IMG/VR virus record: IMGVR_UViG_3300043395_000290
Location: 1 to 46,922 of that record
DNA from: a virus
Length of the DNA stretch: 46,922 nucleotides
Direction: 5' to 3' (one strand)
Below are positions 15 through 45,547 of this stretch, piece by piece. Within the stretch, counting starts at the first letter, position 1, and each line of letters begins with the position of its first letter. The translations under genes were made by a program, and so were the position numbers. Below the pieces are notes generated by a model, which was not told where the DNA came from, searched no databases, and saw only the letters and a program-made list of their open reading frames with translations.

Positions 15-446
15 ATGAAAAGTGAAATTAAAAAAGAATTTAATTTTGAATGTAACGACCCTAACTGCCCACATTGCGCAGATGATATTAGACAAATGGT
101 AGAAGATGATGTATGGGGGTTTGGTTTACAAGATGAATTAAATAAACTTCCATATACAAAGCATCTCGATGATGGTCAGTATAATGATGGTCAGTTAGCA
201 GGTTTTGAATTAGGTGCTACTTGGGGTTACAACAAAGCCAAATCTACTCTATATACAGAGGAACAAGTTATAGAGTTTGCTAAATGGTTAGCGTCTAATT
301 GGATTCCACTTCATGTTACTAAAGAGTATCTATGGGAGTATGATGAACTTGACCTATCCAAAATACCTGAAAATTACAGAGAGTATAAGACAGAGAAACA
401 ACTCTTTGATATATTCCAATCACTTAAACAACCTAAAAAAGATTAA
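15..446 (+). CDS. small early protein with Cys cluster and SLKQPK C-terminus
   Basis: I do not recognise a function. The 143-residue product has a Cys cluster near the N-terminus (C13-x4-C18-x2-C21, reading NCPHC at the end) that could bind a metal. A segment around residues 74-90 contains LYTEEQVIEFAKW, and the C-terminus is QSLKQPKKD. The LYTEEQ segment and the C-terminus recur in the next two genes, so these are paralogues or share exchanged ends. It is followed after 2 bp by the next gene. The start is the first ATG in the frame, and its ATGA would overlap the stop of the right-end gene if the window is circular. Base composition is very AT-rich, like the next six genes. Confidence 0.8.
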   Translation: MKSEIKKEFNFECNDPNCPHCADDIRQMVEDDVWGFGLQDELNKLPYTKHLDDGQYNDGQLAGFELGATWGYNKAKSTLYTEEQVIEFAKWLASNWIPLHVTKEYLWEYDELDLSKIPENYREYKTEKQLFDIFQSLKQPKKD

Positions 447-451
447 TTATG
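417..451 (+). repeat. gene-junction repeat, copy A
   Basis: A 35-bp sequence beginning CAATCACTTAAACAACCTAA and ending in the ATG of the next gene. It is repeated identically at 827-861. A 25-26-bp version, with the next gene's ATG moved closer, lies at 1078-1103 and 1988-2013, and diverged versions lie at 1472-1492 and 2251-2276. Each copy encodes the C-terminal residues SLKQPK of one gene and at the same time forms the A-rich translation start region of the next. Confidence 0.9.
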
Positions 452-856
452 ACAAATTGCATTTTTGAACCAAGAACAGACACATCATCTGCAACTATAT
501 GTAAATATTGTGGTCAAGAAAAATACTTACATATTAATTGTACAGCACCTCTAATTTCTGATATGAGGAAGATGGAAGAAGATGATGTTGAGAAGTTGGC
601 TTTGAATGAGTATCCTATTATAATTAAAACTAAAAAAAGTATTGGAGGTAATGAATACGATACTGATGTTAATTATATGGAACGCAGGGCATTTGTAAAT
701 GCTTACAACAAAGCCAAAGAAACTCTATATACAGAGGAAGAAGCAATAGATTTTCATAAATGGGCTTTCCAAAAAGTCAGAATTGAAGAATCTGATAAGA
801 CAACAAAAGAATTATTTGCTGAATGGCAATCACTTAAACAACCTAAAAAAGATTAA
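449..856 (+). CDS. small early protein with zinc-knuckle-like N-terminus and SLKQPK C-terminus
   Basis: Function unknown. The 135-residue product has a CxxC-x6-H-x2-C arrangement (C18, C21, H28, C31) that looks like a small zinc site. Its central segment ETLYTEEEAIDFHKWAF matches the equivalent segment of the preceding gene, and it has the identical C-terminus QSLKQPKKD. The DNA under the central motif (706-743) is close to identical to 230-267. The N-terminal parts are unrelated, so the genes look like different heads joined to a common middle and end. Translation probably starts from the ATG formed at the end of the junction repeat. Confidence 0.8.
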   Translation: MTNCIFEPRTDTSSATICKYCGQEKYLHINCTAPLISDMRKMEEDDVEKLALNEYPIIIKTKKSIGGNEYDTDVNYMERRAFVNAYNKAKETLYTEEEAIDFHKWAFQKVRIEESDKTTKELFAEWQSLKQPKKD

Positions 857-861
857 TTATG
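827..861 (+). repeat. gene-junction repeat, copy B
   Basis: Identical over 35 bp to 417-451. It spans the last codons (SLKQPKKD, stop) of one gene, the 2-bp gap ending in the AATTATG start context, and the ATG of the next gene at 859. Confidence 0.9.
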
Positions 862-1104
862 GAACAACCAACACCAATAGAATGGTTACAAGAAGTATAT
901 AAAGTAACAGGAACATTAAAAGAATCAGATTTTAATTATGCAAATAATTGGACTAAAGAAAACACCTATACAGAGGAACAATACAAGGCAGCAATTAAAA
1001 AAGCATGGTTTGATTCTACTATGCAGTTTGATAACTCTGCAGAAATGACATACAAAAAGTCATTTGATGATTATTACCAATCACTTAAACAACCTAAACA
1101 ATGA
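859..1104 (+). CDS. small early protein, TYTEEQ motif and SLKQPKQ C-terminus
   Basis: An 81-residue protein of unknown function. It is the shortest member of the set that shares the YTEEQ motif (here ENTYTEEQYKAAIKKAW) and the C-terminal SLKQPKQ. It lacks the Cys cluster of the two preceding members, so it is close to the common core of the set. Its stop overlaps the next start as ATGA at 1101-1104, which suggests translational coupling. Confidence 0.8.
   Translation: MEQPTPIEWLQEVYKVTGTLKESDFNYANNWTKENTYTEEQYKAAIKKAWFDSTMQFDNSAEMTYKKSFDDYYQSLKQPKQ
1078..1103 (+). repeat. gene-junction repeat, copy C
   Basis: Starts CAATCACTTAAACAACCTAA, followed by ACAATG. Here the repeat ends directly in the ATGA stop/start overlap instead of the GATTAATTATG ending of copies A and B. 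Its closest relative is at 1988-2013. Confidence 0.85.
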
Positions 1105-1493
1105 ACAAAGAATTTATACCATACGAACAAGCATTAGAAATTAAAGAACTTGGGTTTGATGAACCTTGTTTAGGGTATTACCATGAAGATGGTTCTATAT
1201 CATTTACAGGTGTTACTACACAAAACACAAACTCATTTTGGTTAGCAAGTCCTAATAAAATATTCACTGCACCACTCTACCAACAAGCATTTAGATGGTT
1301 TAGAGAAAGATATTTATTACATCATGAAATAGCTTGTGGAGATAATGTTTTTTGGTTTAGATATGGGAAAAATGGTCATGTTGCTGTATTATTTATTGAT
1401 ACAAATAATGATAATTATTACCCTACCTACGAAGAAGCAGAACTTGCTTGTCTGAAAAAACTTATTGAAATAACTAAAAAACCTAAGCAATGA
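1101..1493 (+). CDS. conserved Bacteroidetes-phage hypothetical protein
   Basis: A 130-residue protein. The N-terminal segment (PYEQALEIKELGFDEPCLGYY, about residues 7-27), the QAFRWFRERY segment and the C-terminal YEEAELACLKKLIEI match, from memory, a hypothetical family common in Bacteroidetes phages. No function is known to me. The C-terminus ITKKPKQ is a diverged form of the SLKQPKQ ending of its neighbours. It overlaps both flanking genes by an ATGA. Confidence 0.85.
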   Translation: MNKEFIPYEQALEIKELGFDEPCLGYYHEDGSISFTGVTTQNTNSFWLASPNKIFTAPLYQQAFRWFRERYLLHHEIACGDNVFWFRYGKNGHVAVLFIDTNNDNYYPTYEEAELACLKKLIEITKKPKQ

Positions 1494-1729
1494 TTATACA
1501 AACAAAGATTGAAGTTGTAAATACAAAGATGGAGGAAATGCTAGGAGAATCAGACGCTATGTTAGTCAACATGTCTTTTGATTTAAGAGAAGTGTGTGCT
1601 ATAAGAGAGATTATTGAAGATGACTTTACTGAAGTTGAGACAAGCAAGTGCCACATCTATATGAGAAGTGGCGAATACTTCATGATATTCACCCCATACA
1701 AAACAATTTTAGAACAATTTAAACAATAA
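1490..1729 (+). CDS. small early hypothetical protein
   Basis: 79 residues, unknown function. Short alternating hydrophobic segments suggest a small beta-rich domain: a strand with DLREVCAIREI, then CHIYMRSGEYFMIFTPYKTILEQF. The last part, a gel-like strand-turn-strand followed by a short helix, faintly resembles small proteins of the FlbD type, but this is not enough to name it. The C-terminus EQFKQ is a weak version of the neighbours' shared ending. It starts at an ATGA overlap with the preceding gene. Confidence 0.7.
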   Translation: MIIQTKIEVVNTKMEEMLGESDAMLVNMSFDLREVCAIREIIEDDFTEVETSKCHIYMRSGEYFMIFTPYKTILEQFKQ

Positions 1730-1732
1730 TTT

Positions 1733-2014
1733 ATGACAACAGTACAATGGTTTAAAGAACAAATTGATGGTGTATTACCAGCAATATTTACACAAGCATC
1801 TAAAGTAGATGAAAAAGACCAACTAGCTCAAATAAAAAGAGAGATAGAGGACATTATGCCTTTCTTATACAACAATGCTCTTGAAATGGAGAAGCATAAC
1901 CATGAAAAAACATTTAAGGATTCAAGGTCTGCTCATATATTTGAGAAAGATATGCCTCCACTTTTTGAAAATTTTGAACAATATTGGGAATCACTTAAAC
2001 AACCTAAACAATGA
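1733..2014 (+). CDS. small early protein with SLKQPKQ C-terminus
   Basis: 93 residues, predicted helical, with no recognisable domain. The N-terminus is TTVQWFKEQIDG. The C-terminus YWESLKQPKQ is encoded by another copy of the junction repeat (1988-2013), which also carries the next start as ATGA. It is mildly acidic in the middle and probably cytosolic. Confidence 0.75.
   Translation: MTTVQWFKEQIDGVLPAIFTQASKVDEKDQLAQIKREIEDIMPFLYNNALEMEKHNHEKTFKDSRSAHIFEKDMPPLFENFEQYWESLKQPKQ
1988..2013 (+). repeat. gene-junction repeat, copy F
   Basis: Matches copy C (1078-1103) from the second base to the ATG; only the first base differs (G for C). It lies about 900 bp from copy C with unrelated genes between, so the similarity is confined to gene ends. 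Confidence 0.85.
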
Positions 2015-2277
2015 CACAGCAAAGTGGAGTTGAATATTTGTTAACTGAAATTGCAAATGATAAATTGCTATTAGACAAATCAAAGTGGAGATATGTTAAG
2101 ACCAAGGCAAAACGTATTGAGTATGAACAGCAGATTAAATTACTAAAGTGGATAGAAGGTTCGTATTCATTTGGTAATGTCGCAGGTAAATGGTATAGGC
2201 ATAGCGATGGGAAAGATTTCACACTTGAGCAATTAATTGAACTCTATAAATTAACTATTAAACAACCTAAAAAATGA
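2011..2277 (+). CDS. small early protein with IKQPKK C-terminus
   Basis: 88 residues, helical and basic, of unknown function. It contains RIEYEQQIKLLKWIEG and ends LTIKQPKK, a diverged copy of the shared C-terminus. The junction segment at 2251-2276 again overlaps the next start as ATGA. This is the last gene of the very AT-rich run: composition changes within the first codons of the following gene. Confidence 0.75.
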   Translation: MTQQSGVEYLLTEIANDKLLLDKSKWRYVKTKAKRIEYEQQIKLLKWIEGSYSFGNVAGKWYRHSDGKDFTLEQLIELYKLTIKQPKK

Positions 2278-2597
2278 TATCATGTATATGTATAGATGAC
2301 AGCTTCAGGCCTAATGAGATACCACTCAGCAAGTGGGTAAAGAAAGGTCAGGAGTACCACGTAATCTACGCCGTCACAGTTCTGCCTTCAGACGAATTGG
2401 CGTTTGACCTGTATGAGATTGAGCTTACAGACAACGAGTTGCCATACGAACATTTCCTAGCATCTAGGTTCGGATTCACAGCAGACAACCTAGTAAAGCT
2501 AGCTGAGTTAATGATGGACTGCGTAGGAGTAAATCAATCAGTAAAAGAACTTATTCAAAAAACCAACACAATACAAAATCCAAATGGACATACTTGA
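2274..2597 (+). CDS. conserved phage hypothetical protein
   Basis: 107 residues. The segment CIDDSFRPNEIPLSKWVKKG near the N-terminus (about residues 6-25), followed by a strand and FLASRFGF, fits a conserved Bacteroidetes-phage family known to me only as hypothetical. It is probably a small beta-barrel-like protein. It lacks the SLKQPK ending of the upstream genes and has a higher GC content. It overlaps the helicase gene by 14 bp, which suggests translational coupling and perhaps a shared role in early DNA metabolism. Confidence 0.8.
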   Translation: MISCICIDDSFRPNEIPLSKWVKKGQEYHVIYAVTVLPSDELAFDLYEIELTDNELPYEHFLASRFGFTADNLVKLAELMMDCVGVNQSVKELIQKTNTIQNPNGHT

Positions 2598-4035
2598 ACC
2601 ACTTCTCGGATACTCAGACGAGATGATGCTTGACAGATGCGAGGCGCTCAAAAGAGTAATCACCGCCACTAAGGATGTGAAGATTGGCAGAGCGCCTAAG
2701 GTTGAAATCATTAAGATGCCCAAGTATAAGACGGCTCCTGATGTATTGGCACGCATCATCAACAGTTGCGAATACTATTCCGAAAGAGTAAAAAACAAAA
2801 CACACGTGACATACAGAGACTACCAATTAGACATAATCAAAAGAGGGACAGACATACTCAAGAAGTATTGGTTCCTGTATCTAGCCATGGAGGTCCGAAC
2901 AGGGAAGACGCTGACTAGCTTGGGTATAGCAGAAGAAGTAGGCGCCGAGAGAGTGCTGTTCATTACTAAGAAGAAAGCCATCGGCTCCATAACTGCTGAC
3001 TACAATATGCTCAAGCCTTCGTTCTATATGTGCGTCATCAACTACGAAAGCCTACACACCGTGCAGGATGAATGGAAGTGGGACCTCATCATCTGCGACG
3101 AGGCACATAGCATGGGCGCATTCCCAAAGCCTAGCCTAAGAGCGGACATGGTAGCAAAACTTGTGAGGAAACTAAACCCATATGTCATACTACTTTCGGG
3201 CACCCCAACACCGGAGTCGTACTCTCAAATGTACCATCAGGTTTATGGCATACCTAACAATCCGTTCTCAGAGTTCAAGAGCTTCTACAGGTTCTGCGAC
3301 AAGTACGTGAAGGTAAAACAGCGTAAGATAAACGGACTCATGATGAACGACTACTCCAATGGGTTAGATACTATCCTTGAGGCTATGAGGCCATACACTA
3401 TCACATACACGCAGGAGGCCGCAGGATTCAAAGCAAAGACCACAGAGGAGGTATTGGAGGTAGAGCTGAAGGAATCAACCTATAAGTTGATAGAGCGCCT
3501 TAAAAAGGATTTGGTGATTGAGGGTAAGGAGGAGGTCATCTTGGCTGATACATCCGTCAAGTTGATGACTAAGGTGCATCAGCTGTGCTCCGGAACCATC
3601 AAGTTCGAGAGCGGGAAGTCTATGGTGCTTGACCTATCCAAGGCAGAGTTCATCAAGTCGCACTTCGAGGGGTGCAAGATTGGTATATTCTACAAGTTTA
3701 AGGAGGAGCTATCTGCATTGCAGCAGGTGTTTGGAGACAACCTGACCACAGAGCTGAGTGTCTTTGAAGACACAGATAAGAACATCGCATTACAGATAGT
3801 GTCCGGGCGTGAGGGGATATCGCTAAGAGACGCCGACTACTTGGTGTACTACAACATCGACTTCAGTGCCACTAGCTATTGGCAATCCAAGGACAGGATG
3901 ACTACGAAGGATAGGTTGGAGAATAGCGTATATTGGGTATTCTCTAAGGGCGGAATAGAGAAGGACATATACAAGGCGGTCACAAAGAAGAAGGACTATA
4001 ATGTTGCTCACTTCAAGAAAGACTTCATGTCATGA
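2584..4035 (+). CDS. DEAH/SNF2-type DNA helicase
   Basis: A 483-residue superfamily 2 ATPase. Visible motifs in order: a Q-motif-like segment HVTYRDYQLDII (about 75-86); Walker A MEVRTGKT (102-109); motif II DEAH (172-175); motif III SGTPTP (205-210); a motif V-like segment SGREGISL before LVYYN; and a motif VI-like QSKDR with Q434 and R438. The arrangement fits compact phage SNF2-like helicases that remodel or unwind DNA during replication or recombination. The upstream nucleic-acid-binding domain is short and I see no fused nuclease. The next genes (VRR-NUC-like nuclease, DnaA-like protein) support a replication/recombination role. The strand polarity and substrate cannot be read from sequence. 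A near-palindrome (3758-3773) lies inside the gene. Confidence 0.93.
   Translation: MDILEPLLGYSDEMMLDRCEALKRVITATKDVKIGRAPKVEIIKMPKYKTAPDVLARIINSCEYYSERVKNKTHVTYRDYQLDIIKRGTDILKKYWFLYLAMEVRTGKTLTSLGIAEEVGAERVLFITKKKAIGSITADYNMLKPSFYMCVINYESLHTVQDEWKWDLIICDEAHSMGAFPKPSLRADMVAKLVRKLNPYVILLSGTPTPESYSQMYHQVYGIPNNPFSEFKSFYRFCDKYVKVKQRKINGLMMNDYSNGLDTILEAMRPYTITYTQEAAGFKAKTTEEVLEVELKESTYKLIERLKKDLVIEGKEEVILADTSVKLMTKVHQLCSGTIKFESGKSMVLDLSKAEFIKSHFEGCKIGIFYKFKEELSALQQVFGDNLTTELSVFEDTDKNIALQIVSGREGISLRDADYLVYYNIDFSATSYWQSKDRMTTKDRLENSVYWVFSKGGIEKDIYKAVTKKKDYNVAHFKKDFMS
3758..3773. repeat. 16-bp near-palindrome inside helicase gene
   Basis: GTGTCTTTGAAGACAC, one base different from the perfect palindrome GTGTCTTTAAAGACAC found at 26863-26878 and 46519-46534. 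The same motif, also with one central change, is at 33965-33980. Confidence 0.7.
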
Positions 4036-4226: not shown

Positions 4227-4462
4227 CAGAGCAACAGATACAATCTAAGAAGATAAAGGAATTGGAAGAGCAGGGGTACTATGTAATCAAGTTGATGAAG
4301 ACCAACAAGAATGGTATCCCTGACCTATTGGCTATCCCAAAAAACTCAGACGTTCTTTTTGTAGAGGTGAAGGCAGCCAATGGAAAGGTCAGCAAACTTC
4401 AGGAGTTTAGAATCAAGGAACTTAAATCAAATGGAATCAAAGTACAAATCTACAAACCATGA
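4223..4462 (+). CDS. VRR-NUC-like PD-(D/E)xK nuclease
   Basis: A 79-residue minimal nuclease domain. The catalytic signature is readable: G31-I-P33-D34 followed after 13 residues by E48-V-K50 within VLFVEVKAANGKVSKLQ, the VRR-NUC arrangement. Family members act on structured DNA such as branched intermediates; the precise substrate is inferred, not shown. It is single-domain, as is usual for phage copies. It is coupled by ATGA to the small gene upstream and to the DnaA-like gene downstream, placing it in a replication/recombination operon. Confidence 0.9.
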   Translation: MTEQQIQSKKIKELEEQGYYVIKLMKTNKNGIPDLLAIPKNSDVLFVEVKAANGKVSKLQEFRIKELKSNGIKVQIYKP

Positions 4463-4971
4463 AAGAAATACAATCAGAAGTTGAAATGCTAAGGCAGATT
4501 ATAAAGGCAGTAATGTATGCTGACATCTTAACTAAAAAAAGAGACACTCGATTCGTAAATGCAAGACTTGTGTTCGCAAAGATTATGCGTGACAGGGGTT
4601 ACAACCTATCTGAAATAGGTAGGTTCTTAGGGAAGCACCATGCTACCATTATACATTACCTAAATGAGGTAGATAATATACTGATGCAAGAGAACAGATT
4701 GATGGAGCAGTACCTGATGTGCAACAGTTTGTTTTATAAGCAAGCTCCTAGCGTAAACAAGGTAATTGAGAAAAGCAAAATAGACTTAGAGATGATGGTT
4801 GTCAATTTAAAAAATGAGATAAGTCAGCTTATGATTGAGCGCCAAAAGGTAGTTGGCATCTTAGAAAAATACCAAAGGATACAGCCAATCATTGATGTTA
4901 TAGAAACTAGAACTCCGTTGGGGAAAGAGGATTCAATAAAACGAAAAATAATTTGTATGTTTAACGAATAA
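4459..4971 (+). CDS. DnaA domain IV-like DNA-binding protein
   Basis: 170 residues. Residues about 33-75 resemble the DnaA C-terminal DNA-binding domain: VNARLVFAKIMRDRG, then NLSEIGRFLG, then GKHHATIIHYLNEVDNIL, the counterpart of the DnaA signature around DHSTV. The AAA+ ATPase part of DnaA is absent. Residues about 110-150 look like a coiled coil (NLKNEISQLMIERQKVVGILEKY), which may dimerise it. By analogy it may bind origin-like sites and recruit helicase or act as a repressor; the role is inferred. It overlaps the nuclease gene by ATGA. Confidence 0.75.
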   Translation: MKEIQSEVEMLRQIIKAVMYADILTKKRDTRFVNARLVFAKIMRDRGYNLSEIGRFLGKHHATIIHYLNEVDNILMQENRLMEQYLMCNSLFYKQAPSVNKVIEKSKIDLEMMVVNLKNEISQLMIERQKVVGILEKYQRIQPIIDVIETRTPLGKEDSIKRKIICMFNE

Positions 4972-4981
4972 TATACATGCC

Positions 4982-5176
4982 ATGAACCTTCAAGAAGACT
5001 TAGAAAACGAGCGGGCCGAGCGGCTCGCTATTAGAATAGGAGAATGCCACCGGCTCTTAGCCAATATATACGAGAACTTGGTTGACCGCGAGTTTGAATC
5101 AGTCACTAAAGACTCAAAGAATATCATAACCCAAATACGCCTCATTTTAAAATCAATGGAAGAAGATGATTTTTGA
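4982..5176 (+). CDS. small helical early protein
   Basis: 64 residues, almost entirely charged helix, including ENERAERLAIRIGECHRLLANIYENL and ending KSMEEDDF. No domain is recognised. An upstream ATG at 4976 is followed at once by a stop, so the start is the ATG at 4982. It overlaps the following gene by 11 bp. Its context, between a DNA-binding protein and a nuclease, hints at an accessory role only. Confidence 0.7.
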   Translation: MNLQEDLENERAERLAIRIGECHRLLANIYENLVDREFESVTKDSKNIITQIRLILKSMEEDDF

Positions 5177-5582
5177 AACAGACAAGGACTTCGAGAGAGA
5201 GCAAAAAGCAATAAAGTTATTCGTCAGCACATTCGGTGGTACGTTCAGTAAGCTAGGCCCATTTGATGTAGACTACAAGGTGTTCGATAAGGAAGGTAAA
5301 CTAGTAGCGTATGTGGAGGTGAAGGGAAGAGTAAGGACTATAAGAAACGCATACCCATTACCGGTGTCAGCTGCAAAGCTAACAAAGCTAGCGGCCAAGC
5401 GTCTAGCTCCTGTGATTATATGGGCATGCGATGACGGTATTATTTATAGCAATGTAAACAATCTAGAGGGGACAGTAAAGTGGGGCGGTAGAGAACCCCG
5501 CCCCGGTGCTGCACATGATGCTGAACTTATGGTGTACTATGACAAGCAGAAGAGTTTCAAGTACGTTAGGTATCCTGTTTAA
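5166..5582 (+). CDS. putative PD-(D/E)xK-type nuclease
   Basis: 138 residues. The pattern FDVDYKVFDKEGKLVAYVEVKGR gives D36 followed by E51-x-K53, the core of a PD-(D/E)xK fold, after an N-terminal helix (residues 6-22). Later segments APVIIWACDDGI and KWGGR look like the fold's remaining strands. Comparable small proteins are frequent in Bacteroidetes phages; the substrate is unknown. It is the last gene of the early operon. Its stop overlaps the stop of the opposing 2821-residue gene, leaving no room for a terminator between them. Confidence 0.75.
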   Translation: MIFETDKDFEREQKAIKLFVSTFGGTFSKLGPFDVDYKVFDKEGKLVAYVEVKGRVRTIRNAYPLPVSAAKLTKLAAKRLAPVIIWACDDGIIYSNVNNLEGTVKWGGREPRPGAAHDAELMVYYDKQKSFKYVRYPV

Positions 5583-8500
5583 TATTTTCTTTTCTTCTTA
5601 GGAGTGTACCCGTACTTCTTATCTTCTATCTCTCTTTCTTTTTTTCTTATTATGTCCTCAGCCTCTATTTCATTTCTATACTTTTTGTAGTATTTGGACT
5701 TCTTCCCAAATGTTTTTTCATACAGCTTAGGGTCATACCTTTTCATGTCAGACTTGCTATCATATCCTTTTAGCAAATCATTGAGCTCTTCTTTTTTATC
5801 AGCTAATTCGCTCTTGCGTTCTTTGCGGTATTCGCTTCTTTCTTCATCAGTCATCTCAAGCTCTCTGAGTTTTTCCTGCATGATAGATTTTATTGAAGGA
5901 TTCATTCCTTTCTGAAGCATCCCTCTAATTACATTGGCTTTATCTTCACGCTCCTGAGCCGTCTCTTCTTTACGCTCTGCCTTCATCATATCCTCATACT
6001 CTTTAGCGGATGCATTCTCTTCGGTATCCTTAGATTTTTTAGCTTCAGCTTTTCTTAGGTCACTGTACATGTTGTCCATAACCACCTTACGTACATCCTT
6101 GTATAGTGGTATCCACCCTAAGTTGCCTAATGCTTCTAGCGGAAGACGGACATTCACTTCATTGTTAGCGCGTTCAATTGCTTCTTCTTTTTTCTTAGGG
6201 GGCTCTGTCGCTTTTTGTATAGCCAAGTCAAGTGTCTTCAGCGCCGGAGTAAATGAACCACCGATAACCTGAATGTAATCAGTAAGGTTAGTCTTATGCC
6301 CTTTGCGCTCCTGAGGAATCATGTTGTACTGAATGGCATCTTTGTATGGGTCATAGTCTCCCTTTCTAAGGGCCCCTAAAAACTTCTCGTTACCACGCTC
6401 TACACCATAGTTAATGATAGACCTAGATGCGTTACCAAAGTCACGTCCAAACATAAGGGTAGTAGCTGTACCTGCCAATGCTTGGCCAAACTTCTGAGCA
6501 AATGTTTTTTCTTCTTCTTCGTCGTCATCCTTAGGCCTGAACATGCCAACCAACGCAGAACCGAGTACGCTTGTCAGCAGCGTATATACTGTCATCCTTG
6601 TAGCAACACCCGCTAGTAATGCAGCCCCTTGCTTCTTAGTGATGGTACCATTGCCCATCATAGCATATATCCCTTGGCGTGCAGTAGTGTATTCGTATAT
6701 TGCAAACTTCGTCATGAAGTTGTTGAAGTTATTGAACGCTCTAGTGAGTACGCTTTGATTAGGCTTAGTGGTACCCTTTAGTATGCCCATAAATGCATTC
6801 TCTGATGCACCGGCAAGCACACTCCTCTCATCTGCAAAATCTCTTGACCTATCCAATGCTTCTTTGTAGCGGTTCATGTAACTCTCATCGTTTGCAGCTA
6901 TCTTGTTTAAGTCAACGTCCTGACCGGTCTGACGTTTGAACTCATTAGAAAAAGACCCAAACCAAATAGGTCGCATCACCATTTTATCCGGCGTGGATAT
7001 AAGCGCATCTGCTGAAAATTCTATTGGGTTCTTGACGAACTTCTTAAGCGTCAGATTATAAATCTGCTCTACCTTGTTCATCACTTTACCCCTAGCCTTG
7101 CCTCCTCTTACACCGGATGTCTGACTCAGTATTTGAGTATCAATCATACGGCCTTGTAATGTGTCTCCGTGGAATATCCTGCCAAGCTGCTTGCTCTTTA
7201 CATTCATCATGGCCTTTACCGCATCCGGAGACATGATGAACTCAGACTGTTGTAACCCGGCAAATAAAGCACCGGGGTCTGATATCACAGCGTACCCAAT
7301 GTTTGATGACAATTCTGAAATAAACCTAGGTACACTTGCTAATATTGCACGATACCCTTGCTTTGACAGATAGTTAACTACCATATCCCCAAACGAATCA
7401 GCAATGAAGTTGTTAGTAAGCATATTACTTGTTGCTTCCTCAAACGCATTGTTGATAGCATTGAACACCTCACGTTGAAACTTTGGTACTCTACCTTTAC
7501 TTTCCATATCAACCTTGGCCCTATTCAATGTTTTCCTAGCTGTCCTTATTGGGGCAGTCATGTGGTAGTCCATCAACGTAAACTTAACTCCACGCTCAGC
7601 AGACATGAATACATCAAAGTTGATTGGCTTGGCGTTCTTAGTCCTTTCTATTAATGACTTTGCTTTGGTAGACGGGCGCCTTGAATTGTTATAGCTTTCC
7701 GCAAGAGATACATTTCGAGACAAATCGTCGGGGCCATATTCATACATCACCGGTAAATGAATATAGTTCACCAATGGGCTAATCTTATCTCCTCTGATAA
7801 CAGACGATGTGAACATAGCCTTCTCTGTAAGAGAGTCATTCACCTCTCTGATAGTCTTCATTGCATTCCGCTCCGCTGCATTGAAAGATTGGTATAGCTT
7901 GTTGGTATCTATCTCTATGATGTCATTCCCTTTGGCATCTTGACCAACTACAACCCCATAATTATCTAGGATTGATTGCAGCATATTCGCCTCTCTTTCT
8001 CCTAGGTTTGAATTACCACCATCAATATGTTTGATTGTAGCCTGCAAGTACTTAGCCGCAGGGTTAACTTGGTCGCTGTCGGGATTTGAATCGTGCTCCT
8101 GCTGAATCATATACGTCATCATCTTGTATGAAGATAATAGCGTAGCATTTGTATTGTTATTAAATGATTTGGATACAGCCTCGTGAGCCATCTCTAATTT
8201 CTTATTCAGCATATCTAACTCTGCCTTAAATAAAGACTGAGCTTCAGCCACTTTCTCAAATACCGCATTAAATATAGCCTTTGACTTGAAGTCTCCGAAC
8301 ACTTGGTCTATGAAGTACAAAGGAGACCTTCTTACCATCTCTAGTATCGCTCCTTTATCTGTAAATAAAGACTTCAGTTTAGCATACGCTTTACCTATTT
8401 TTGATACAGACGCTGAAGATATTGAGCTATCCAAAGGCTGACTGTTTTCAATAGCATTCATGTCCTCTAGCATCAGCTCGGCAGAATGCGGGAAGTATCC

Positions 8501-11500
8501 GTTATTGATATTGTCAATTACCCTTAGCAATCTTTTTAACTCTTCATTAGTCATTCTGCTCAATATGCTTGGCTTGAGCATTGTTCTCAGTTCGTAAGCT
8601 CTTCTTCTTTCGTCTGCCATTGACAGCTTCCTGTAGTTGACTGTCTGTTGCATTGCAGCATCTACCAATTCTGCATTCTCTTCCTCAGTCTCTTGCTTGC
8701 TTTTTTCTTCAGGCTCTACCTGAGGCAGGATATCTGTCTTGTACTTAGACATTAACTCCGCTTCTTTGGCGGTAATTGTCTCGTCGGCTACCATGTTCTT
8801 TATGGTCTCTGCGTAGTTTAATTTACCGTCACTATCCAATACTTTTTTATCATAAGACTCAAGCCTAATCGCTAGCTCATCTGCTAAACTAGATTGCTCA
8901 TTTACCTCATCCAATATAGCATTGGTCATTGACGTTACCACATCAATGTCTGCTAATTTAAGCACAGCTTGATTGGCTCCTAGCATTTCAACCAATGTCA
9001 TGTAACTATTCAGAACAGTGTCAGGTATCTTGGCCGGGTCAATGTCAAGCATCCTCTCCAACATTGGCATCAGGTTCTCAGCAACGCCTAGCTTGGTCCT
9101 TATGTTCTTCTTTGCTTTCCTTATCAAGCTGCTAGCCTGATTCATCTTACCTGCATACTCAGCATTGTTAAATACCTTGGCTGCGTAGTTCACGAAGTTG
9201 GTAACAGATACCTCATTAAGCAAGTTGACCTTACCAAATCTAGCTAACAAGTTAGCTGCTTGGCCAACAGTGATACTGCCTTCGTTAGCCATGGCTCTCA
9301 GCTCTTTGGCTAAGTCTTTGGCTGCATCCTTGGCTAGCTCTCTCAGGTTCTTTACAATCCTAAGTTTATCTGCAAGCGTAGCGTTTGGCATATCCTTCAG
9401 CGCTCCTATGATACGCCCAATAGATGGCGCTCTCCTTGGCTTGGCCTCCATCTTCAACCTTCCCGCACGCTCCATCACTTTCTTCTGCAAGTCATTGGCA
9501 TTCTTGTACACCTCTGAGTTCCTGATAAGCGTGTCTACGTTTGAGATAATCTTCTTTGTATCTGTACCTGTCTTCTTTTGCCTAGCAATCATAGCGTCTA
9601 CCTTAGTCATCACAGCATCAAAGCCATCCTTAATCTCTGCGATAGCGGTGAACTCTTTAATAGACTGAGATACGTCAGACAGGCTGAGGTTATTCTCCTT
9701 GGCTATTTTCATGATAGCACGCTGCACAGTCATACCACCTTTAACCAAAGCCTTTACGCCTTTAATCAGTACCTGAAGAGTACCAAGTGGTATGGCAAAC
9801 AATGACTCATTAGCGCCGCCAAATAATCTAGCTGATATCTTCTTGTCAATATCATCCAATATGTCATAGGTAATCTCACCTAATGACTTCTCCTGCTCTT
9901 CTTGCGTAGGCTGCGCCTCTGCTTGCATGTCTCCTGCACGGCCTTCGGTCCAAGTCCACTCAGGCATAAGCCCTGATTTTTGGTCAGCAAAAATTGTATC
10001 CTCAACTGATGCGTTCCTATTTGTTTCACCGTGTGGGCCAAAGTTAAGCCAAGAGTTTTGCCCCCTTGTCTCACTTGTTATAGCGCCAACGGCTGAACCT
10101 GTAAACAATCTTACGTGAGCCTGCCAAGCATTCTCTTCACCTCTCGCTCTGAATCCTGCCCCTTCTAGGCCATGACCAAAAGCATCATGCACTGCACGGA
10201 ATAAATCATTGGCAAGCACCGGCTTTAATTCACCATCTACTCCGCCAACACCCCAATAGAAACCTGTCTCAGCTAACAGTGGGTTATTTTCAACGTCCAA
10301 ATCTGAAGACCCAAAGCCATCTGTAGTTGGGAATACCCCCATCTCTTTATCTTGGCGCATAGAACGCAAGGCATTGTATGGGCTTGATGCGTATTCCGCA
10401 TTGCTTGGCAAGTTCATATCTATGAACCAAAACTTATACCCCGCATCTACCAACGCTTTGTACTGAGCTACCGTTTGCTTGATTAGATTTTGATAAGCCT
10501 CTCTGACCTTAGGGTCTTTCGGATTATGCTCCATCTTCTCGTACTCAGCAGCTATCCTGCGTGCCCTATCCTCATCTACAGTTACATACTCTGACTGCCT
10601 TTTGAGGTCGATTCCATTTTCTGCTGCATACTTTTCGGCAACGGCAACAAGCTGTGGGTCCGGCCCGTTAATGCCTTGAACTGATGGCGCACCTTCAAGA
10701 GGCGCAAGTCTGCCGACCTCTTGGCGTCCTGTTCGTTCTCCTGCTCCTGCGGGTTGTAGCTGCTCTGTTTCATTTGTTATTATGTTTTGTTGTTCACTTG
10801 GTTTTATTGTTTCTGATGTTACTTCAATCTCAGGTAACTTTACTTCTATTACAGGGCCTTGACCTGTCGCCTTACTACTTGATGGGGACATTATAAATCT
10901 TCCATCTCCAATCTGCCTATCAACTTTGAATCCTCTCGACTCAAGCATTGACTTCATTTTAGTAGACACAACATCTACCTCAATAGTTGCATCAGGATTT
11001 GAGTCAGATATTTCAATTGGCATTTGTATTACCGAATTGAGCAATCTAGACCCAACACCTTTAGACTCGGCTTCTTTACTTACTACTACATCAAATGTAT
11101 ATTTGTCCCCATCGTAAGAAGTGAATGCCCCTCCAACAATATTACCTTGATTATCTTTTGCCACATAAGCTATCTCCCTATCACTAGTGATACCTAAATT
11201 TCTTTCTTTAGCTATATCCCTAACTTTTTGTTCCGCATCATAATCAATATCCCCAAATTCACTTATAGGTTGCTCTATAGTTATCCCATTATCCAACCCT
11301 TCGGTAGTACCTTTTATTTCAGGTAACTTTACTTCTATTACTTCTCCTTGAGCTTGAGCTGAGCCGGGCTTAATTTCTACTATACCTGCCGTAGGTTGTT
11401 CTTTAATCTTTTCTTTCAGGTCATTAAGCTCTGTCTCCAATTCAGTTCTTGCGTCAGTCAACAACTTGCCTTTACCTGTGTCGGCGATGGCAGCATTGTC

Positions 11501-14044
11501 TCCTGAAATGATACCCTCAATCTCAGCTATCCTGTCTGTTATTTTTTTCTTCTCCTCATCAGTGATGGCTTCGGTCCCTGTGGCAGCGACTTGAGGTTTT
11601 TGGTTTCCTTCGCCCATTGGCTGCAATTCCAATCCGGGGACTTCTTGGCGTAGCACGCCTTCACCTGTTGTTTGTTCTTGAACGGCATTTGATATTTGTT
11701 CTAGTTGTGAATTAATCTCTGTTATCCTATCTCTCTGCTTCTTAGTGATGGCCTCGTCCTTACCCTGAATCTCATTTGTAAGGTCCGTCTTCTCCTTTAA
11801 TAACCCAAGCGCCTTACGCTTCTGCGCATTGTTCAATCCTTCGGGTATTGAGTTCAACAGCCCTGCGCTTTGTGTATAATTATCAAGTTGCTTTTGAGCT
11901 TGCTCTTTTGTAATCTGCCCTTGATTGATTTGGGTCTGAAGCATTTGTGCATATGCACCCCTAAACCTTGTGTCATTTTTAAATTTCTCTGCAATTTCTA
12001 TATGGGCATCACTAATACCATTGAAATCATTTTTTGAAAATGCTTCACTTAATGCATGTGGTGAACCAAGAACAAGACCACCTATGGCTTCTTGCAATCC
12101 TCCGATGGCTATTTCTTTTAAATACCCACCAATACTATCAGGGGTATTAAACATCTTCATGTAGTTGCCATCCTCATCTTTTTTATTCTTGGCAATATTG
12201 TATAGGTCTTCTATTGCCATCTCTGCAAATTGCTGAGTAGCGCCTGTCTCAGCTTCAGCAAGAGCACCACCAATAGCTGTTAGTGTGCCTCTAGCTAATC
12301 CGCTTTTTACTTCGTTTCTAATAAACTCAGCAAATGATTGAGCGCTAGCAGTTGCAACTTTATCTCCCAATGCTTTACCGACAAGGCTATTCATCACACC
12401 CTTGCTACCTATAATATTTCTAAATCCAATCTCTTCTAATACCGCATTTGCAACAGCTATTGGAGCAGCAACCATTCTTTTTTCCTCCTCAGATACATTT
12501 GCAAAATTTGGGTTGTCACTCATTTTCTCCATCTCTGCTTGCTCTGATTGAGCATACATACGAGCAACACGAGACATCCATCCGCCACCCAAAAATGAAG
12601 GGATAGATTCTACAGTTCCGAGAAGAGACCCACTTACAAGACCCTTCTTCGCTTCTTGTTCATATTGTTTTGACAAACTTTCGGGTGCTATTGAAGAAGC
12701 AATGTCTTTCATAAAATCACCATATCCTACAAGCCCTGTTTCTTCATCACCATATTTGTATGCTTTACGTGCTAAGTCCTGTATCTTATTTACTAAAGGC
12801 CCATACTCTTCAATCTTCATCTTGTCCATCTTGGCAACAAACTTGTCGTAATCATCTTTAGTAAGAATGCCAAAATGCTTTGCAACGGCAGGGTCTTTTA
12901 GCTGCTGCCTTGGGTCGGTCATGATACCTTCTTTGAAATCAATCAATTGACTTCCTGCCCATGTTGCTAATTGTTCAACGCCATTTATAACAGCCTTAGC
13001 TGTAGCATCATACCAAGTACCTTGCTCACCTTTCATAGATGTGTACTGACCGATAGCTCTCTTTAAGTCGTCTTGTTGCTTAGGTATTTGAGCCTGCTTC
13101 TCTATTAATTTTTGCTTAGCATTATTAAGCAAATCTTTCTGAGCCATATAGGCATTATACCTTTGCTTAAACTCTTCTGTGTTTCTTTCATTCCCTTGAA
13201 CCTTATCCAAAGACAATCCTTCCTCTTCTAGCTTTTGACTCATTGAGAGGTATTTCTTTATGTCTAAGTTTAAGAATTGGCTTTTTTGTTTGGCATCTTC
13301 CAATGCTTTATTCACTTCTTCATCAGATGAGAATTTTTTATTTTGACCAATATACTGCTGCTCAATTTTATCTATACCCTTGATGCCCTGAGAATTCTTT
13401 GCAATGAATCTTTTTAATTCAAATGACTCACTCAATTCCTTCCCTTTAGTGAATGGGTCCAATGATACCTCCATTGATTCACCATTTGGAGCAGTTACTT
13501 TCATCCAATCGCCTGTCATACCTGACTGCTCAAACTTAAAACCTAATGGCCCAAACTTATAATTCATTTGGGGAACAACCTCTTGCTCCTCTTTACCTAT
13601 TAAATCAGGGGTGATTTTTTCAATCTCTTCCTTTACAAATCCCGGAGTATTAGCATACATCTTCTCCTTGCTCTGCTGAGCTTGAGCAATCTTAGTCTCA
13701 GTCTCCTGTATTGGCTGAGGGAGTCTAGTAGATTCGCTAACTACAGGCTCAGGTTGATAGAACCCAAACCTATTTGTCTGTTGAGCGGGAGATGCCGATA
13801 CGCCACCTGCCGAAGGTAAAGCCGTAGAGGGTTCTTCTTTTTTTTTTGATTCTTGGAAGAACTCAGGGAACTTGTTGTTTACTACTGAATAGTCATAATT
13901 ATTTTTTTCTGCCGTAGCAACATAATCTTTCAATGCTTGTTGGTCATAACCTTGCAACTCAGGAAACTTTCCAAATACAGTTGCCCAATCATAGTTATAT
14001 TTTTGAGCCGTAGCTATAAAGTCTTTCAGTAATTGTTCGTCCAT
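5579..14044 (-). CDS. giant polyvalent/internal virion protein (2821 aa)
   Basis: The largest gene in the window. The N-terminus has two copies of a unit of about 30 residues: DFIATAQKYNYDWATVFGKF, then DYVATAEKNNYDYSVVNNKF (residues 1-64). Next come long charged helices, then a GNAT acetyltransferase-like domain (about 930-1055, with SKGVGSRLLNS). A conserved domain at about 1130-1372 contains H1286-D-A-F-G-H1291. Long helical regions follow, and a hydrophobic segment near 2473-2500 (LLAGVATRMTVYTLLTSVLG) could cross a membrane. The C-terminus is very basic. The multidomain, partly membrane-active architecture and the position after the tail genes fit polyvalent proteins injected with phage DNA. 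Whether the enzyme-like domains act in the host cell is inference. No RNA polymerase motif was seen. Confidence 0.85.
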   Translation of the reverse strand: MDEQLLKDFIATAQKYNYDWATVFGKFPELQGYDQQALKDYVATAEKNNYDYSVVNNKFPEFFQESKKKEEPSTALPSAGGVSASPAQQTNRFGFYQPEPVVSESTRLPQPIQETETKIAQAQQSKEKMYANTPGFVKEEIEKITPDLIGKEEQEVVPQMNYKFGPLGFKFEQSGMTGDWMKVTAPNGESMEVSLDPFTKGKELSESFELKRFIAKNSQGIKGIDKIEQQYIGQNKKFSSDEEVNKALEDAKQKSQFLNLDIKKYLSMSQKLEEEGLSLDKVQGNERNTEEFKQRYNAYMAQKDLLNNAKQKLIEKQAQIPKQQDDLKRAIGQYTSMKGEQGTWYDATAKAVINGVEQLATWAGSQLIDFKEGIMTDPRQQLKDPAVAKHFGILTKDDYDKFVAKMDKMKIEEYGPLVNKIQDLARKAYKYGDEETGLVGYGDFMKDIASSIAPESLSKQYEQEAKKGLVSGSLLGTVESIPSFLGGGWMSRVARMYAQSEQAEMEKMSDNPNFANVSEEEKRMVAAPIAVANAVLEEIGFRNIIGSKGVMNSLVGKALGDKVATASAQSFAEFIRNEVKSGLARGTLTAIGGALAEAETGATQQFAEMAIEDLYNIAKNKKDEDGNYMKMFNTPDSIGGYLKEIAIGGLQEAIGGLVLGSPHALSEAFSKNDFNGISDAHIEIAEKFKNDTRFRGAYAQMLQTQINQGQITKEQAQKQLDNYTQSAGLLNSIPEGLNNAQKRKALGLLKEKTDLTNEIQGKDEAITKKQRDRITEINSQLEQISNAVQEQTTGEGVLRQEVPGLELQPMGEGNQKPQVAATGTEAITDEEKKKITDRIAEIEGIISGDNAAIADTGKGKLLTDARTELETELNDLKEKIKEQPTAGIVEIKPGSAQAQGEVIEVKLPEIKGTTEGLDNGITIEQPISEFGDIDYDAEQKVRDIAKERNLGITSDREIAYVAKDNQGNIVGGAFTSYDGDKYTFDVVVSKEAESKGVGSRLLNSVIQMPIEISDSNPDATIEVDVVSTKMKSMLESRGFKVDRQIGDGRFIMSPSSSKATGQGPVIEVKLPEIEVTSETIKPSEQQNIITNETEQLQPAGAGERTGRQEVGRLAPLEGAPSVQGINGPDPQLVAVAEKYAAENGIDLKRQSEYVTVDEDRARRIAAEYEKMEHNPKDPKVREAYQNLIKQTVAQYKALVDAGYKFWFIDMNLPSNAEYASSPYNALRSMRQDKEMGVFPTTDGFGSSDLDVENNPLLAETGFYWGVGGVDGELKPVLANDLFRAVHDAFGHGLEGAGFRARGEENAWQAHVRLFTGSAVGAITSETRGQNSWLNFGPHGETNRNASVEDTIFADQKSGLMPEWTWTEGRAGDMQAEAQPTQEEQEKSLGEITYDILDDIDKKISARLFGGANESLFAIPLGTLQVLIKGVKALVKGGMTVQRAIMKIAKENNLSLSDVSQSIKEFTAIAEIKDGFDAVMTKVDAMIARQKKTGTDTKKIISNVDTLIRNSEVYKNANDLQKKVMERAGRLKMEAKPRRAPSIGRIIGALKDMPNATLADKLRIVKNLRELAKDAAKDLAKELRAMANEGSITVGQAANLLARFGKVNLLNEVSVTNFVNYAAKVFNNAEYAGKMNQASSLIRKAKKNIRTKLGVAENLMPMLERMLDIDPAKIPDTVLNSYMTLVEMLGANQAVLKLADIDVVTSMTNAILDEVNEQSSLADELAIRLESYDKKVLDSDGKLNYAETIKNMVADETITAKEAELMSKYKTDILPQVEPEEKSKQETEEENAELVDAAMQQTVNYRKLSMADERRRAYELRTMLKPSILSRMTNEELKRLLRVIDNINNGYFPHSAELMLEDMNAIENSQPLDSSISSASVSKIGKAYAKLKSLFTDKGAILEMVRRSPLYFIDQVFGDFKSKAIFNAVFEKVAEAQSLFKAELDMLNKKLEMAHEAVSKSFNNNTNATLLSSYKMMTYMIQQEHDSNPDSDQVNPAAKYLQATIKHIDGGNSNLGEREANMLQSILDNYGVVVGQDAKGNDIIEIDTNKLYQSFNAAERNAMKTIREVNDSLTEKAMFTSSVIRGDKISPLVNYIHLPVMYEYGPDDLSRNVSLAESYNNSRRPSTKAKSLIERTKNAKPINFDVFMSAERGVKFTLMDYHMTAPIRTARKTLNRAKVDMESKGRVPKFQREVFNAINNAFEEATSNMLTNNFIADSFGDMVVNYLSKQGYRAILASVPRFISELSSNIGYAVISDPGALFAGLQQSEFIMSPDAVKAMMNVKSKQLGRIFHGDTLQGRMIDTQILSQTSGVRGGKARGKVMNKVEQIYNLTLKKFVKNPIEFSADALISTPDKMVMRPIWFGSFSNEFKRQTGQDVDLNKIAANDESYMNRYKEALDRSRDFADERSVLAGASENAFMGILKGTTKPNQSVLTRAFNNFNNFMTKFAIYEYTTARQGIYAMMGNGTITKKQGAALLAGVATRMTVYTLLTSVLGSALVGMFRPKDDDEEEEKTFAQKFGQALAGTATTLMFGRDFGNASRSIINYGVERGNEKFLGALRKGDYDPYKDAIQYNMIPQERKGHKTNLTDYIQVIGGSFTPALKTLDLAIQKATEPPKKKEEAIERANNEVNVRLPLEALGNLGWIPLYKDVRKVVMDNMYSDLRKAEAKKSKDTEENASAKEYEDMMKAERKEETAQEREDKANVIRGMLQKGMNPSIKSIMQEKLRELEMTDEERSEYRKERKSELADKKEELNDLLKGYDSKSDMKRYDPKLYEKTFGKKSKYYKKYRNEIEAEDIIRKKEREIEDKKYGYTPKKKRKY
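10830..10852. repeat. 23-bp direct repeat, C-terminal side of GNAT domain
   Basis: TCAGGTAACTTTACTTCTAT followed by TAC. The same 23 bases occur at 11319-11341. The copies are 489 bp (163 codons) apart, so they are in frame, and both encode IEVKLPE within the giant protein. They flank the acetyltransferase-like domain. Confidence 0.9.
11319..11341. repeat. 23-bp direct repeat, N-terminal side of GNAT domain
   Basis: Perfect copy of 10830-10852. In the protein both copies lie in low-complexity linker sequence reading VIEVKLPEI, on either side of the acetyltransferase-like domain (about residues 903-909 and 1066-1072). Confidence 0.9.
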
Positions 14045-43501: not shown

Positions 43502-43875
43502 TTGCTCAACTTTTTTAGCCTAGTCAATACGTCATAGCCGGTGTGCCCATCAAACTCGTACTTGGCTTTCTCTGCCACCGGTATGTTGAATAAATCCCAA
43601 TCCTCCGCTTTGTAGTGGTTACTGATTTGACCTGTTGGCAGCACAGCTACTACGATGAACCAACCTCCGCCGAAACATACCTCGCCATCATGATGACGCC
43701 AAGACTTGTGCACGTCATAATATGGGATATCATACTTCCCCCACTCGTTGAATAGGGCAGCGTTGTATAACTTCCTGAACTCGTATAGTTCCTTAAAGGT
43801 ATGATAGCCGTCACTGATTAAGTCGGTATCTACTCCGTTTGCTATAATGGTATTTATGGCTTGCTCTGTTGTCAT
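43498..43875 (-). CDS. conserved phage protein with KSWRHHDGE and FDGHT motifs (125 aa)
   Basis: 125 residues. The motif run VHKSWRHHDGEVCFGGGWFI, then PTGQISNHY and KYEFDGHTGYDVLTRLKKL, corresponds to a conserved phage family (WDGH-like). It has many His and Asp residues, suggesting a metal or nucleotide site, with no function known to me. The N-terminus MTTEQAINTII shares the first five residues with the Acb2-like protein. It is joined by ATGA to the GroEL gene upstream and the gene downstream. Confidence 0.82.
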   Translation of the reverse strand: MTTEQAINTIIANGVDTDLISDGYHTFKELYEFRKLYNAALFNEWGKYDIPYYDVHKSWRHHDGEVCFGGGWFIVVAVLPTGQISNHYKAEDWDLFNIPVAEKAKYEFDGHTGYDVLTRLKKLSK

Positions 43876-45494
43876 TTCTGCTCGTAGGTTCTAGCCATCG
43901 TCACAATGGCATTGGTGGATAATATTGTTGTTGCGACACTGATGGCGTTCTGAAGCGCTGTCCTTGTTACCTTCAGCGGGTCAATCACACCCATCTCAAG
44001 CATATCACCGAACTGCTTACCTTTCAGGTCATAGCCATGGCCTAGTGGTTTGCCGTCAGCATAGACCTCGTTGAACGACAGCCCCGAGTTGGATAGTATC
44101 TGCTTGACCGGCGCTAGCATCGCATGCCTAATCATCTCAACCGCAACCGTGTACTCCTTGCTAGGGTTATAGATTTGAACTAGACTCGTCGTGGCGTCAA
44201 GCAAAGCGACACCTGCCCCGGGAAGGATGCCCTCCTCAAGAGCTGAGCGTACTGCACACACAGCGTCATCGACCCTGTCGTACAACTCCTTCTGCTCTAG
44301 GTCAGTGTTCCCACCTACGAAGATGACACCAATGCCACCGGTAAGCGAAGCTATCCTCTCCAACAAGAAGTCCTTGTCAGCCTTTAGCGTCGCCTCACTA
44401 TGTGCAGCCCTGAGCTCAGCCACCCTTGCGTCAATGGTCTCCTTGCTGCTCTTCACGTCTGATGCCACGATAATGGTCTTGTCCTTGCTCACAATCACCT
44501 TAGCCGCATGACCCAAGTTGCTGTAGTTGATATGGCTCAGGTCATCACCGGTCTTCTCGCTGAAATAAGTTGCACCCACAGCCACGGCAATGTCCTGCAT
44601 CAACTCGTGCTGCTTGAACCCGAACCCGGGAGGAGGCACAGCCACACACCTCAAGTTCCCCCTGACAACATTAGCTGCCAAGGTATTAATCACATTCGTA
44701 TTGCAAGGAGAGATTATCAGCAGCTTCTTACCCTCAGTGATGATTGGCTTAAGCACCAACTCCAACTGTAAGATGTTAGCTATCTCAATGTCCGCCACCA
44801 ACACCATCACGTCCTCCAAGATACACTCGTCACGCTTTTGGTCGTTGATGAACAGCGGGGACAAATACCCACGGTTGAACTTTAAGCCCATGGTTGTCTC
44901 GGCATAGGTCTCCGGCGTCTGACTCTTCTCAAGGGTCACCACGCCATCACGGCCCACGTCCTTATACACCTCAGAGATAATCTTACCAACCGAAGTATCG
45001 TTGTTCGCAGAGATAGTCGCCACATCCATCAACCTGTCCTCCGTCACCTCACTTGACATCTCCTTCAACTTGTCCACCACGAAGTCACCCAACTCCACCA
45101 ACTGCCTCAACACCTCCGTGCGGTTTAAACTCTTGTCATCCTCCAACTCATGATGACCGGCAACCACTAACGCCTCAGTAAGTACGATGGCCGTCGTAGT
45201 TCCGTCACCCGCAGTAGTGGCCGTACGGTCAGCTGCTTCCTTCATCATCTTCACCGCCAAGTTCTCAACCGGGTCGATAAGGTCAACAGACTTTGCTACC
45301 GTCACACCATCCTTGGTAACAGTAATGCCATGAGTATGCGTAACCGATTCAATCAGCACAGTATTGCCGCTAGGACCTAATGTACTCTTGACAGCCTTTG
45401 CTATCTTAGCTACACCACTCAATAGACGCCTGCGTCCATCAGCATCAAAAAATAAATCTTTAGGGGAATAACCTGAGTTGTCTTGTACCATCAT
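43872..45494 (-). CDS. groEL: phage chaperonin GroEL
   Basis: 540 residues from the ATG at 45494; an in-frame TTG farther upstream at 45518 is less likely because it would place coding sequence over the promoter box. The chaperonin signatures are intact: STLGPSGNTVLIES, the nucleotide-binding GDGTTTA with D97, the apical GGIGVIFVGG, and D410 in DDAVCAVRSALEEGILPGAG matching the ATP-hydrolysis D398 of E. coli GroEL. The GGM-rich C-terminal tail is missing (ends ARTYEQK). The gene leads the block that ends with GroES, and has a strong Bacteroidetes-type promoter. It probably folds the capsid or the very large tail proteins; that is an inference. Confidence 0.93.
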   Translation of the reverse strand: MMVQDNSGYSPKDLFFDADGRRRLLSGVAKIAKAVKSTLGPSGNTVLIESVTHTHGITVTKDGVTVAKSVDLIDPVENLAVKMMKEAADRTATTAGDGTTTAIVLTEALVVAGHHELEDDKSLNRTEVLRQLVELGDFVVDKLKEMSSEVTEDRLMDVATISANNDTSVGKIISEVYKDVGRDGVVTLEKSQTPETYAETTMGLKFNRGYLSPLFINDQKRDECILEDVMVLVADIEIANILQLELVLKPIITEGKKLLIISPCNTNVINTLAANVVRGNLRCVAVPPPGFGFKQHELMQDIAVAVGATYFSEKTGDDLSHINYSNLGHAAKVIVSKDKTIIVASDVKSSKETIDARVAELRAAHSEATLKADKDFLLERIASLTGGIGVIFVGGNTDLEQKELYDRVDDAVCAVRSALEEGILPGAGVALLDATTSLVQIYNPSKEYTVAVEMIRHAMLAPVKQILSNSGLSFNEVYADGKPLGHGYDLKGKQFGDMLEMGVIDPLKVTRTALQNAISVATTILSTNAIVTMARTYEQK

Positions 45495-45515
45495 GTGTAT
45501 TTGATTTAAGTCTAG

Positions 45516-45547
45516 CAAAGATAATATCGTGGTACGAAAACAGCAAA
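45516..45547 (-). promoter_or_regulatory. Bacteroidetes-type promoter for groEL (late block)
   Basis: The minus strand carries TTTG (45544-45547), a 20-bp spacer and TATCTTTG (45516-45523), matching the Bacteroidetes consensus TTTG-N19-21-TAnnTTTG. The start codon at 45494 is 21 bp past the box. This is the best-matching promoter in the window. Confidence 0.8.

Follow-up and report, generated by a model that had tools for sequence, protein, structure and literature searches.

A shared junction sequence between small phage genes that probably combines a translation leader with a seam for gene exchange

The start-associated sequences (SAS) of cluster K mycobacteriophages have a 13-bp consensus that contains a Shine-Dalgarno (SD) motif, GGGATAGGAGCCC, and the extended versions (ESAS) come with inverted repeats (Pope et al. 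2011, PMC3203893). For lambdoid phages, 'boundary sequences' have been proposed to drive mosaicism by homologous recombination (as cited in PMC3029335), and the PeSL promoter/stem-loop cassettes of T4-type phages are, in the account given by PMC4503421, promoter-terminator elements (Arbiol et al. 2010; Comeau et al. 2014). In lambdoid phages, Rad52-like recombinases have been studied for their relaxed recombination, which uses short, diverged homology (De Paepe et al. 2014, PMC3945230). Here we examine a junction repeat between small genes at the left edge of IMG/VR virus record IMGVR_UViG_3300043395_000290, a linear virus record analysed over its full 46,922 bp (the window). This repeat is probably a translation leader for the gene that follows and, at the same time, a recombination seam, with the tail common to the encoded proteins arising as a by-product.

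Positions of repeats and leaders are given in window coordinates, position 1 being the first letter. Seven small genes lie on the plus strand within 15-2277, followed by a 107-aa gene and then a helicase, and copies of the repeat, in the forms TTAAACAACCTAAACA / AACAACCTAAAAAAGATTAATT, are present at six of the seven junctions. The long form, CAATCACTTAAACAACCTAAAAAAGATTAATTATG (35 bp), occurs at 417-451 and 827-861 without a single difference; the first copy comprises the tail of gene 1, TAA and the TTATG of gene 2. The short form occupies 1078-1104, where the stop TGA overlaps the next ATG, and 1988-2014, at the junction of genes 6 and 7, with 26 bp (AATCACTTAAACAACCTAAACAATGA) common to 1079-1104 and 1989-2014. 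Diverged copies are found at the junction of genes 4 and 5 (1473-1493, ACTAAAAAACCTAAGCAATGA) and at 2251-2277 (TTAACTATTAAACAACCTAAAAAATGA), the latter being the leader of the 107-aa gene that precedes the helicase. In order, the six copies encode the tails SLKQPKKD, SLKQPKKD, SLKQPKQ, TKKPKQ, SLKQPKQ and TIKQPKK. Each copy forms the end of a gene and touches or overlaps the ATG of the next, which bears out the sequence-only reading that had preceded this analysis, where six junctions were described as carrying one sequence that is both a protein end and the A-rich start region of the following gene. All window copies are direct, on the plus strand, 0-5 nt from an ATG and confined to 15-2277. 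In the 46.9 kb there are four occurrences of the 15-mer CTTAAACAACCTAAA, all within this locus, and none of its reversed control; the recurrence of the repeat is far beyond chance. The seventh junction, from gene 5 to gene 6 (about 1713-1732, plus strand), was absent from the sequence-only reading and carries another A-rich leader, of FKQ type (CAATTTAAACAATAATTTATG, tail EQFKQ).

Collecting SLKQPK-ending genes from other phages, a check proposed with the sequence-only reading, recovered the same junction DNA at gene ends in over 50 further viral loci with little else in common. The loci compared are given L-numbers below; most of these records are fragments without assigned hosts, gene calling relied on a simple home-made program, and how many sites are found varies with the search pattern. 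A scan that left codon choice fully free (at Gln, Ser as TCN, Leu, Lys and Pro) returned 36 viral loci and, after deduplication, 20 with the peptide at a gene end. In these 20, the codons are TCA in 20/20, CTT in 20/20 and CCT in 19/20, and CTT makes up 21% of leucine codons across these loci. Since TCA and CTT are invariant despite the codon freedom allowed, the identity lies in the DNA itself, not just in the peptide. An exact scan gave 34 loci, with sites at gene ends in the SLKQPK frame bar a few chance-like matches, and shorter queries retrieved many unrelated heads with KQPKQ, KQPKK or KQPKKD ends, such as EQYYQETFKQPKQ and YWKNKQPKKD. Among named phages, tblastn with gene 1 or a consensus tail protein as query was negative, and 36 nt of leader sequence retrieved chance-level matches only; the KQPK leader is therefore known here from uncultured records only. 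Bacterial genomes yielded two exact 19-mer matches, about the chance expectation, and no paper containing the SLKQPK string was found in the literature searched.

The window phage most likely has a Bacteroidota host, since its terminase is 79% identical to that of MW202828 (an uncultured podovirus genome, 60.9-kb) and about 46% identical to those of Flavobacterium phages, and further records matching the window are Cellulophaga, Tenacibaculum and Maribacter phages. Each repeat would constitute a short, A-rich, weakly structured ribosome entry region of the Bacteroidota type, ending 0-5 nt before the ATG. Because stop and start overlap or nearly touch, such a leader would lie inside the end of the upstream gene, where it would usually be translated, yielding the common tail KQPKQ or KQPKKD. 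The association with starts is close: an open reading frame (ORF) starts within -5..+25 nt after 52 of 54 KQPK-tail genes, compared with 468 of 790 (59%) for genes of these loci overall. The leader scores at the 86th percentile among 1,743 ordinary starts of these phages. Adenine enrichment of the phages' start regions peaks at -14..-10 and -6..-3, in agreement with the A peaks from ribosome profiling of Flavobacterium johnsoniae (PMC6847099), and the leader displays the traits of the A-rich Bacteroidota initiation region, namely adenines near -3, -6 and -12/-13, low structure and no SD. Folding energy over 50 nt around starts averages -1.08 kcal/mol for leaders vs -2.62 kcal/mol for other starts (p=2e-6), and an SD core is found in just 2 of 337 starts of KQPK-type loci. 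We therefore infer that the leader promotes translation, and the earlier suggestion that the junction keeps expression intact fits this resemblance to an A-rich, weakly structured Bacteroidota start context.

Copies that are not translated as tails point in the same direction. When only distinct leaders are counted, the longest ORF upstream has its stop 15-30 nt ahead of the ATG in 6 of 30 KQPK leaders of the long form, in 2 of 25 of the short form and in 4 of 17 leaders of a second type, NQNK. In L006, L021, L065 and L160 the stop of the preceding gene falls at the leader or shortly ahead of it, and the preceding gene of L027 runs through the repeat in a different frame. Leader and following ATG are thus preserved also at junctions whose upstream gene has stopped earlier or uses another frame. 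On this sequence evidence the peptide tail is most likely a by-product of leader DNA, not a functional tag, and would have no function of its own.

The same small genes also occur with other leaders. Among homologues of window gene 4 (80 loci kept), the head MNKEFIPYEQAL...LIEI is retained, while the ends are KQPKKD, KNK, GGDK and others; in other phages the junctions of these homologues are KQPK, NQNK/KNK or GGDK, and the genes start behind leaders that match their tail type. The NKEFIPY and EQYYxETF families likewise occur with KQPK, NQNK/KNK and GGDK junctions. GGDK is the translation of GGAGGTGACAAATG / GGAGGTGACAA(ATG), a strong SD leader, and all 14 distinct examples that have a clear ORF upstream carry this tail, the heads differing up to the residue before GG. 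At the same locus as in the window, one helicase relative (L111) has three consecutive NQNK junctions and another (L142) six consecutive GGAGG leaders. Together with the other evidence on leader types, these series are therefore explained by the leader and not by a peptide tag. A single junction type per locus was found in 30 of 34 deduplicated loci with at least 2 typed junctions (2,000 shuffles: mean 7.4, max 15), a purity test that is descriptive, the regular expressions for the leader types having been chosen once the junctions had been inspected. Junctions within one phage tend to be of a single type.

Strong SD leaders (GGAGGTGACAA/GGAGGTAACAA) are concentrated on small-gene cassettes (L142:4606-5608, L136, L172, L194, L232), in phages whose other starts are mostly without SD and some of which are helicase relatives of the window phage. 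Outside the leaders, GGDK-type loci have an SD at 10% of starts and a control motif at 5%, and part of this SD excess may be composition. The ribosomes of F. johnsoniae ignore SD, the anti-SD being hidden, unless bS21 is missing (PMC9976891). It is conceivable, if rather doubtful, that such leader 'dialects' are a selectable trait, a phage family keeping to one leader type for its early-gene cassettes, with an extended SD leader (GGAGGTGA) on these cassettes in some relatives; the latter would place cassette genes under specialised ribosomes lacking bS21, with the same DNA still acting as recombination seam.

The protein heads themselves are partly modular. Gene 1 (15-446, 143 aa, tail QSLKQPKKD) and gene 2 (449-856, 135 aa, same tail) are 40% identical at the protein level, and gene 3 (859-1104, 81 aa, tail QSLKQPKQ) has the YTEEQ module in common with them, a YNKAK-TLYTEE module and more being found across genes 1-3. 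No similarity of this kind is present in gene 4 (1101-1493, 130 aa, tail TKKPKQ), gene 5 (1490-1729, 79 aa, tail EQFKQ), gene 6 (1733-2014, 93 aa, TVQWFKEQ head, tail ESLKQPKQ) or gene 7 (2011-2277, 88 aa, tail TIKQPKK), all seven genes being on the plus strand. The earlier statement that the heads are unrelated thus holds across phages and for genes 4-7, but not for genes 1-3. Genes 1 and 2 also have a second DNA repeat in common, the plus-strand module M2 (YNKAKSTLYTEEQV... in gene 1), whose copies at 227-287 and 703-763 are 85% identical. The M2 codons (LYTEEQV) are frozen across loci (CTA 22/23, ACA 23/23, GTT 23/23), as are those of the leader; such exactness is therefore found outside start regions too and suggests spread by recombination. 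Judged by its codons, M2 appears to be a second DNA-conserved seam, inside genes. In phages otherwise sharing little, M2 (YNKAKETLYTEEQV) is kept at the DNA level and marks borders of sub-gene exchanges, and the small proteins resemble assemblies of a few modules (SxEWLxxQ, KGTLTKTxxGW, DVEKLA, YTEEQ and EQYYxETF). The stretch 103-274 of gene 1 is 89% identical to L009 over 172 bp.

Exchange of cassettes at the junction, as the sequence-only reading had supposed, is corroborated by direct comparison of loci. L017 and L028 have a 63-aa gene in common at 97-98% identity over ~220 bp, with similarity that begins at ACTTAAACAACC on the left and ends at GATTAATTATG on the right, between unrelated flanks. 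The borders of exchange thus fall at the repeat on both sides in this pair, and on one side in L017/L019, L068/window and L037/L048. In L017/L019, a block of 98% identity extends from M2 to the leader and is followed by different genes. Between window gene 4 and L068, 87 bp are 95% identical, beginning inside the leader, with different genes upstream; in window coordinates this is 1085-1171, identical at the same level to L068/L166, with its onset inside the third leader copy. Small genes in common at ~80% identity, with leaders at both ends, are also present in L009/L021 and L006/L021. Adjacent genes of different phages therefore differ exactly at the repeat (L017/L028, L017/L019, window/L068), and gene order at these junctions is not fixed. 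Conserved leader DNA would provide ready-made homology for the gain, loss and swap of small genes between otherwise unrelated phages, and an incoming gene would arrive in frame and with a working start signal.

Recombination at the seam would be homologous, with phage annealing or recombinase proteins as plausible agents. In MW202828, a Sak-type annealing protein (E=2.5e-36) adjoins a RecE-like exonuclease, and matches to Sak, Erf, RecT or AAA_24 above the cut-off were obtained in 7 of 20 KQPK-phage records, many of which are fragments. Sak as a universal recombinase was rejected, being present in 1 of 20 records.

Could the shared C-terminus instead be a functional peptide tag of early proteins, for binding, localisation or degradation, with the next start overlapping by accident? 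Most copies, 57 of 72, are in frame as tails, above one third, SLKQPK is invariant among aligned tail proteins, and the conserved block often runs further upstream (EIIQSL), more than a leader requires. These points favour a tag and weigh against our interpretation, as does the failure to detect a recombinase in 13 of the 20 KQPK-phage records; the translation and recombination roles of the repeat are, moreover, predicted from sequence, and the repeat itself inflates the bulk enrichment of alignments that end there. Since a shared repeat creates alignment ends, that bulk count is no proof, and only high-identity pairs count. The in-frame excess would be explained by in-frame inheritance through recombination, though selection on the peptide may contribute. 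A tag, however, does not need the frozen TCA and CTT codons, non-coding and other-frame copies persist, and tails without a following gene hardly occur. The same heads bear GGDK, NQNK or FKKK tails that follow the leader type of the phage, the GGDK tail being a translated SD. The tag proposed in the sequence-only reading is thus not supported, and we regard it as quite improbable.

Recent local duplication, in which genes 1-3 and others would be paralogues and the repeats remnants of tandem duplication, accords with the modules common to genes 1-3 and with the two identical 35-bp copies, but genes 4-7 are unrelated and yet carry copies, and the same DNA joins unrelated heads across phages; duplication may explain genes 1-2 only and is very unlikely as a general account. 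Slighter still is the chance of a site-specific cassette system, integron-like or invertase-like, with a dedicated recombinase recognising the repeat. Whole genes are indeed exchanged with borders at a short conserved sequence, but the window copies are direct repeats, all on the same strand, the A-rich element shows little structure, unrelated leader sequences serve equally at the same locus, swaps end also at the internal M2 module, and no repeat-specific recombinase was identified in a search that was not exhaustive. Least probable is convergent A-richness, whereby overlapping starts need A-rich DNA that yields lysine-rich tails without any exchange: ordinary starts of these phages are A-rich too, but convergence cannot produce 19-35 identical bases with unusual codons, and whole genes 97-98% identical between copies in unrelated genomes already contradict it. 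A translation leader that doubles as recombination seam is the reading we prefer.

The setting of the repeat is itself changeable. The corresponding region of relatives is flanked by a primase-like gene (~805 aa) on one side and by a ~111-aa gene plus helicase on the other and contains anywhere from none to about six small genes, which makes it a variable locus. Its right border in the window is the 107-aa gene (2274-2597), where relatives usually have the ~111-aa gene; next comes the ResIII/SNF2-like helicase (2584-4035) that served as anchor for aligning relatives, both genes being on the plus strand. A stretch of ~13 kb that separates groEL from the primase region in MW202828, and that contains the genes for the annealing protein and the exonuclease, appears to be missing from the window record, and the variable locus is therefore cut at the left edge of the window. 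G+C is 31% in 1-2000 and roughly 35-52% in the rest. Family searches with genes 1-7 returned nothing beyond weak PHROG matches, of unknown function, and Pfam matches below threshold. The AlphaFold2 model of gene 2 is of moderate confidence, with the last 6 residues as coil; that of gene 4 is good (pLDDT 81), and it found no PDB match at E<=0.001, its top viral matches being uncharacterised. A DnaA C-terminal-domain-like protein (4459-4971) and a PDDEXK_14 endonuclease (5166-5582) adjoin the helicase, a single ORF of 2,821 aa occupies 5579-14044 on the minus strand, with a comparably giant gene in the matching place of MW202828, and a full-length GroEL-like protein is encoded at 43872-45518 (minus strand); the MW202828 annotation includes GroEL and a chaperonin 10 kd subunit.

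These junctions provide a rule that can be tested for the way in which phages take up small genes already in frame and ready for translation, and a route to finding cassette genes, probably for host takeover or counter-defence, in uncultured phages. They also caution against taking a conserved C-terminus of a small phage protein as a sign of protein function, since it can be leader DNA.

Set beside the systems described above, the repeat most resembles parts of each. Like SAS, it is a short, asymmetric, one-orientation repeat a few nucleotides from the starts of non-structural genes that belong to different families, it may contain the upstream stop, and a translation role has been proposed for both. 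However, neither the GGGATAGGAGCCC consensus nor the inverted repeats of ESAS were encountered here: the leaders are A-rich without SD (KQPK, NQNK) or have an SD (GGDK), and are less structured than ordinary starts. They are also usually translated as a shared C-terminus, spread over phages that otherwise share little, and mark the borders of gene swaps. With PeSL, as described in PMC4503421, the repeat has in common that it would be a mobile regulatory element between small genes that mediates gene shuffling, but there is no stem-loop terminator, the energies around starts instead indicating a weakly structured leader inside coding sequence. Relaxed recombination offers a mechanism able to exploit short or diverged homologies, although longer homologies were studied there and no dedicated joint was described. 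The likeness to lambdoid boundary sequences, as these are presented in PMC3029335, lies in a short conserved gene-border sequence that would act as recombination joint and is shared by otherwise different genomes, and exchange borders here coincide with the repeat. Boundary sequences have long been proposed as a cause of phage mosaicism and said to be unidentifiable at most borders; in the present case they are found at repeated borders, in interchangeable versions and with swaps captured directly, and they would double as translation leaders.
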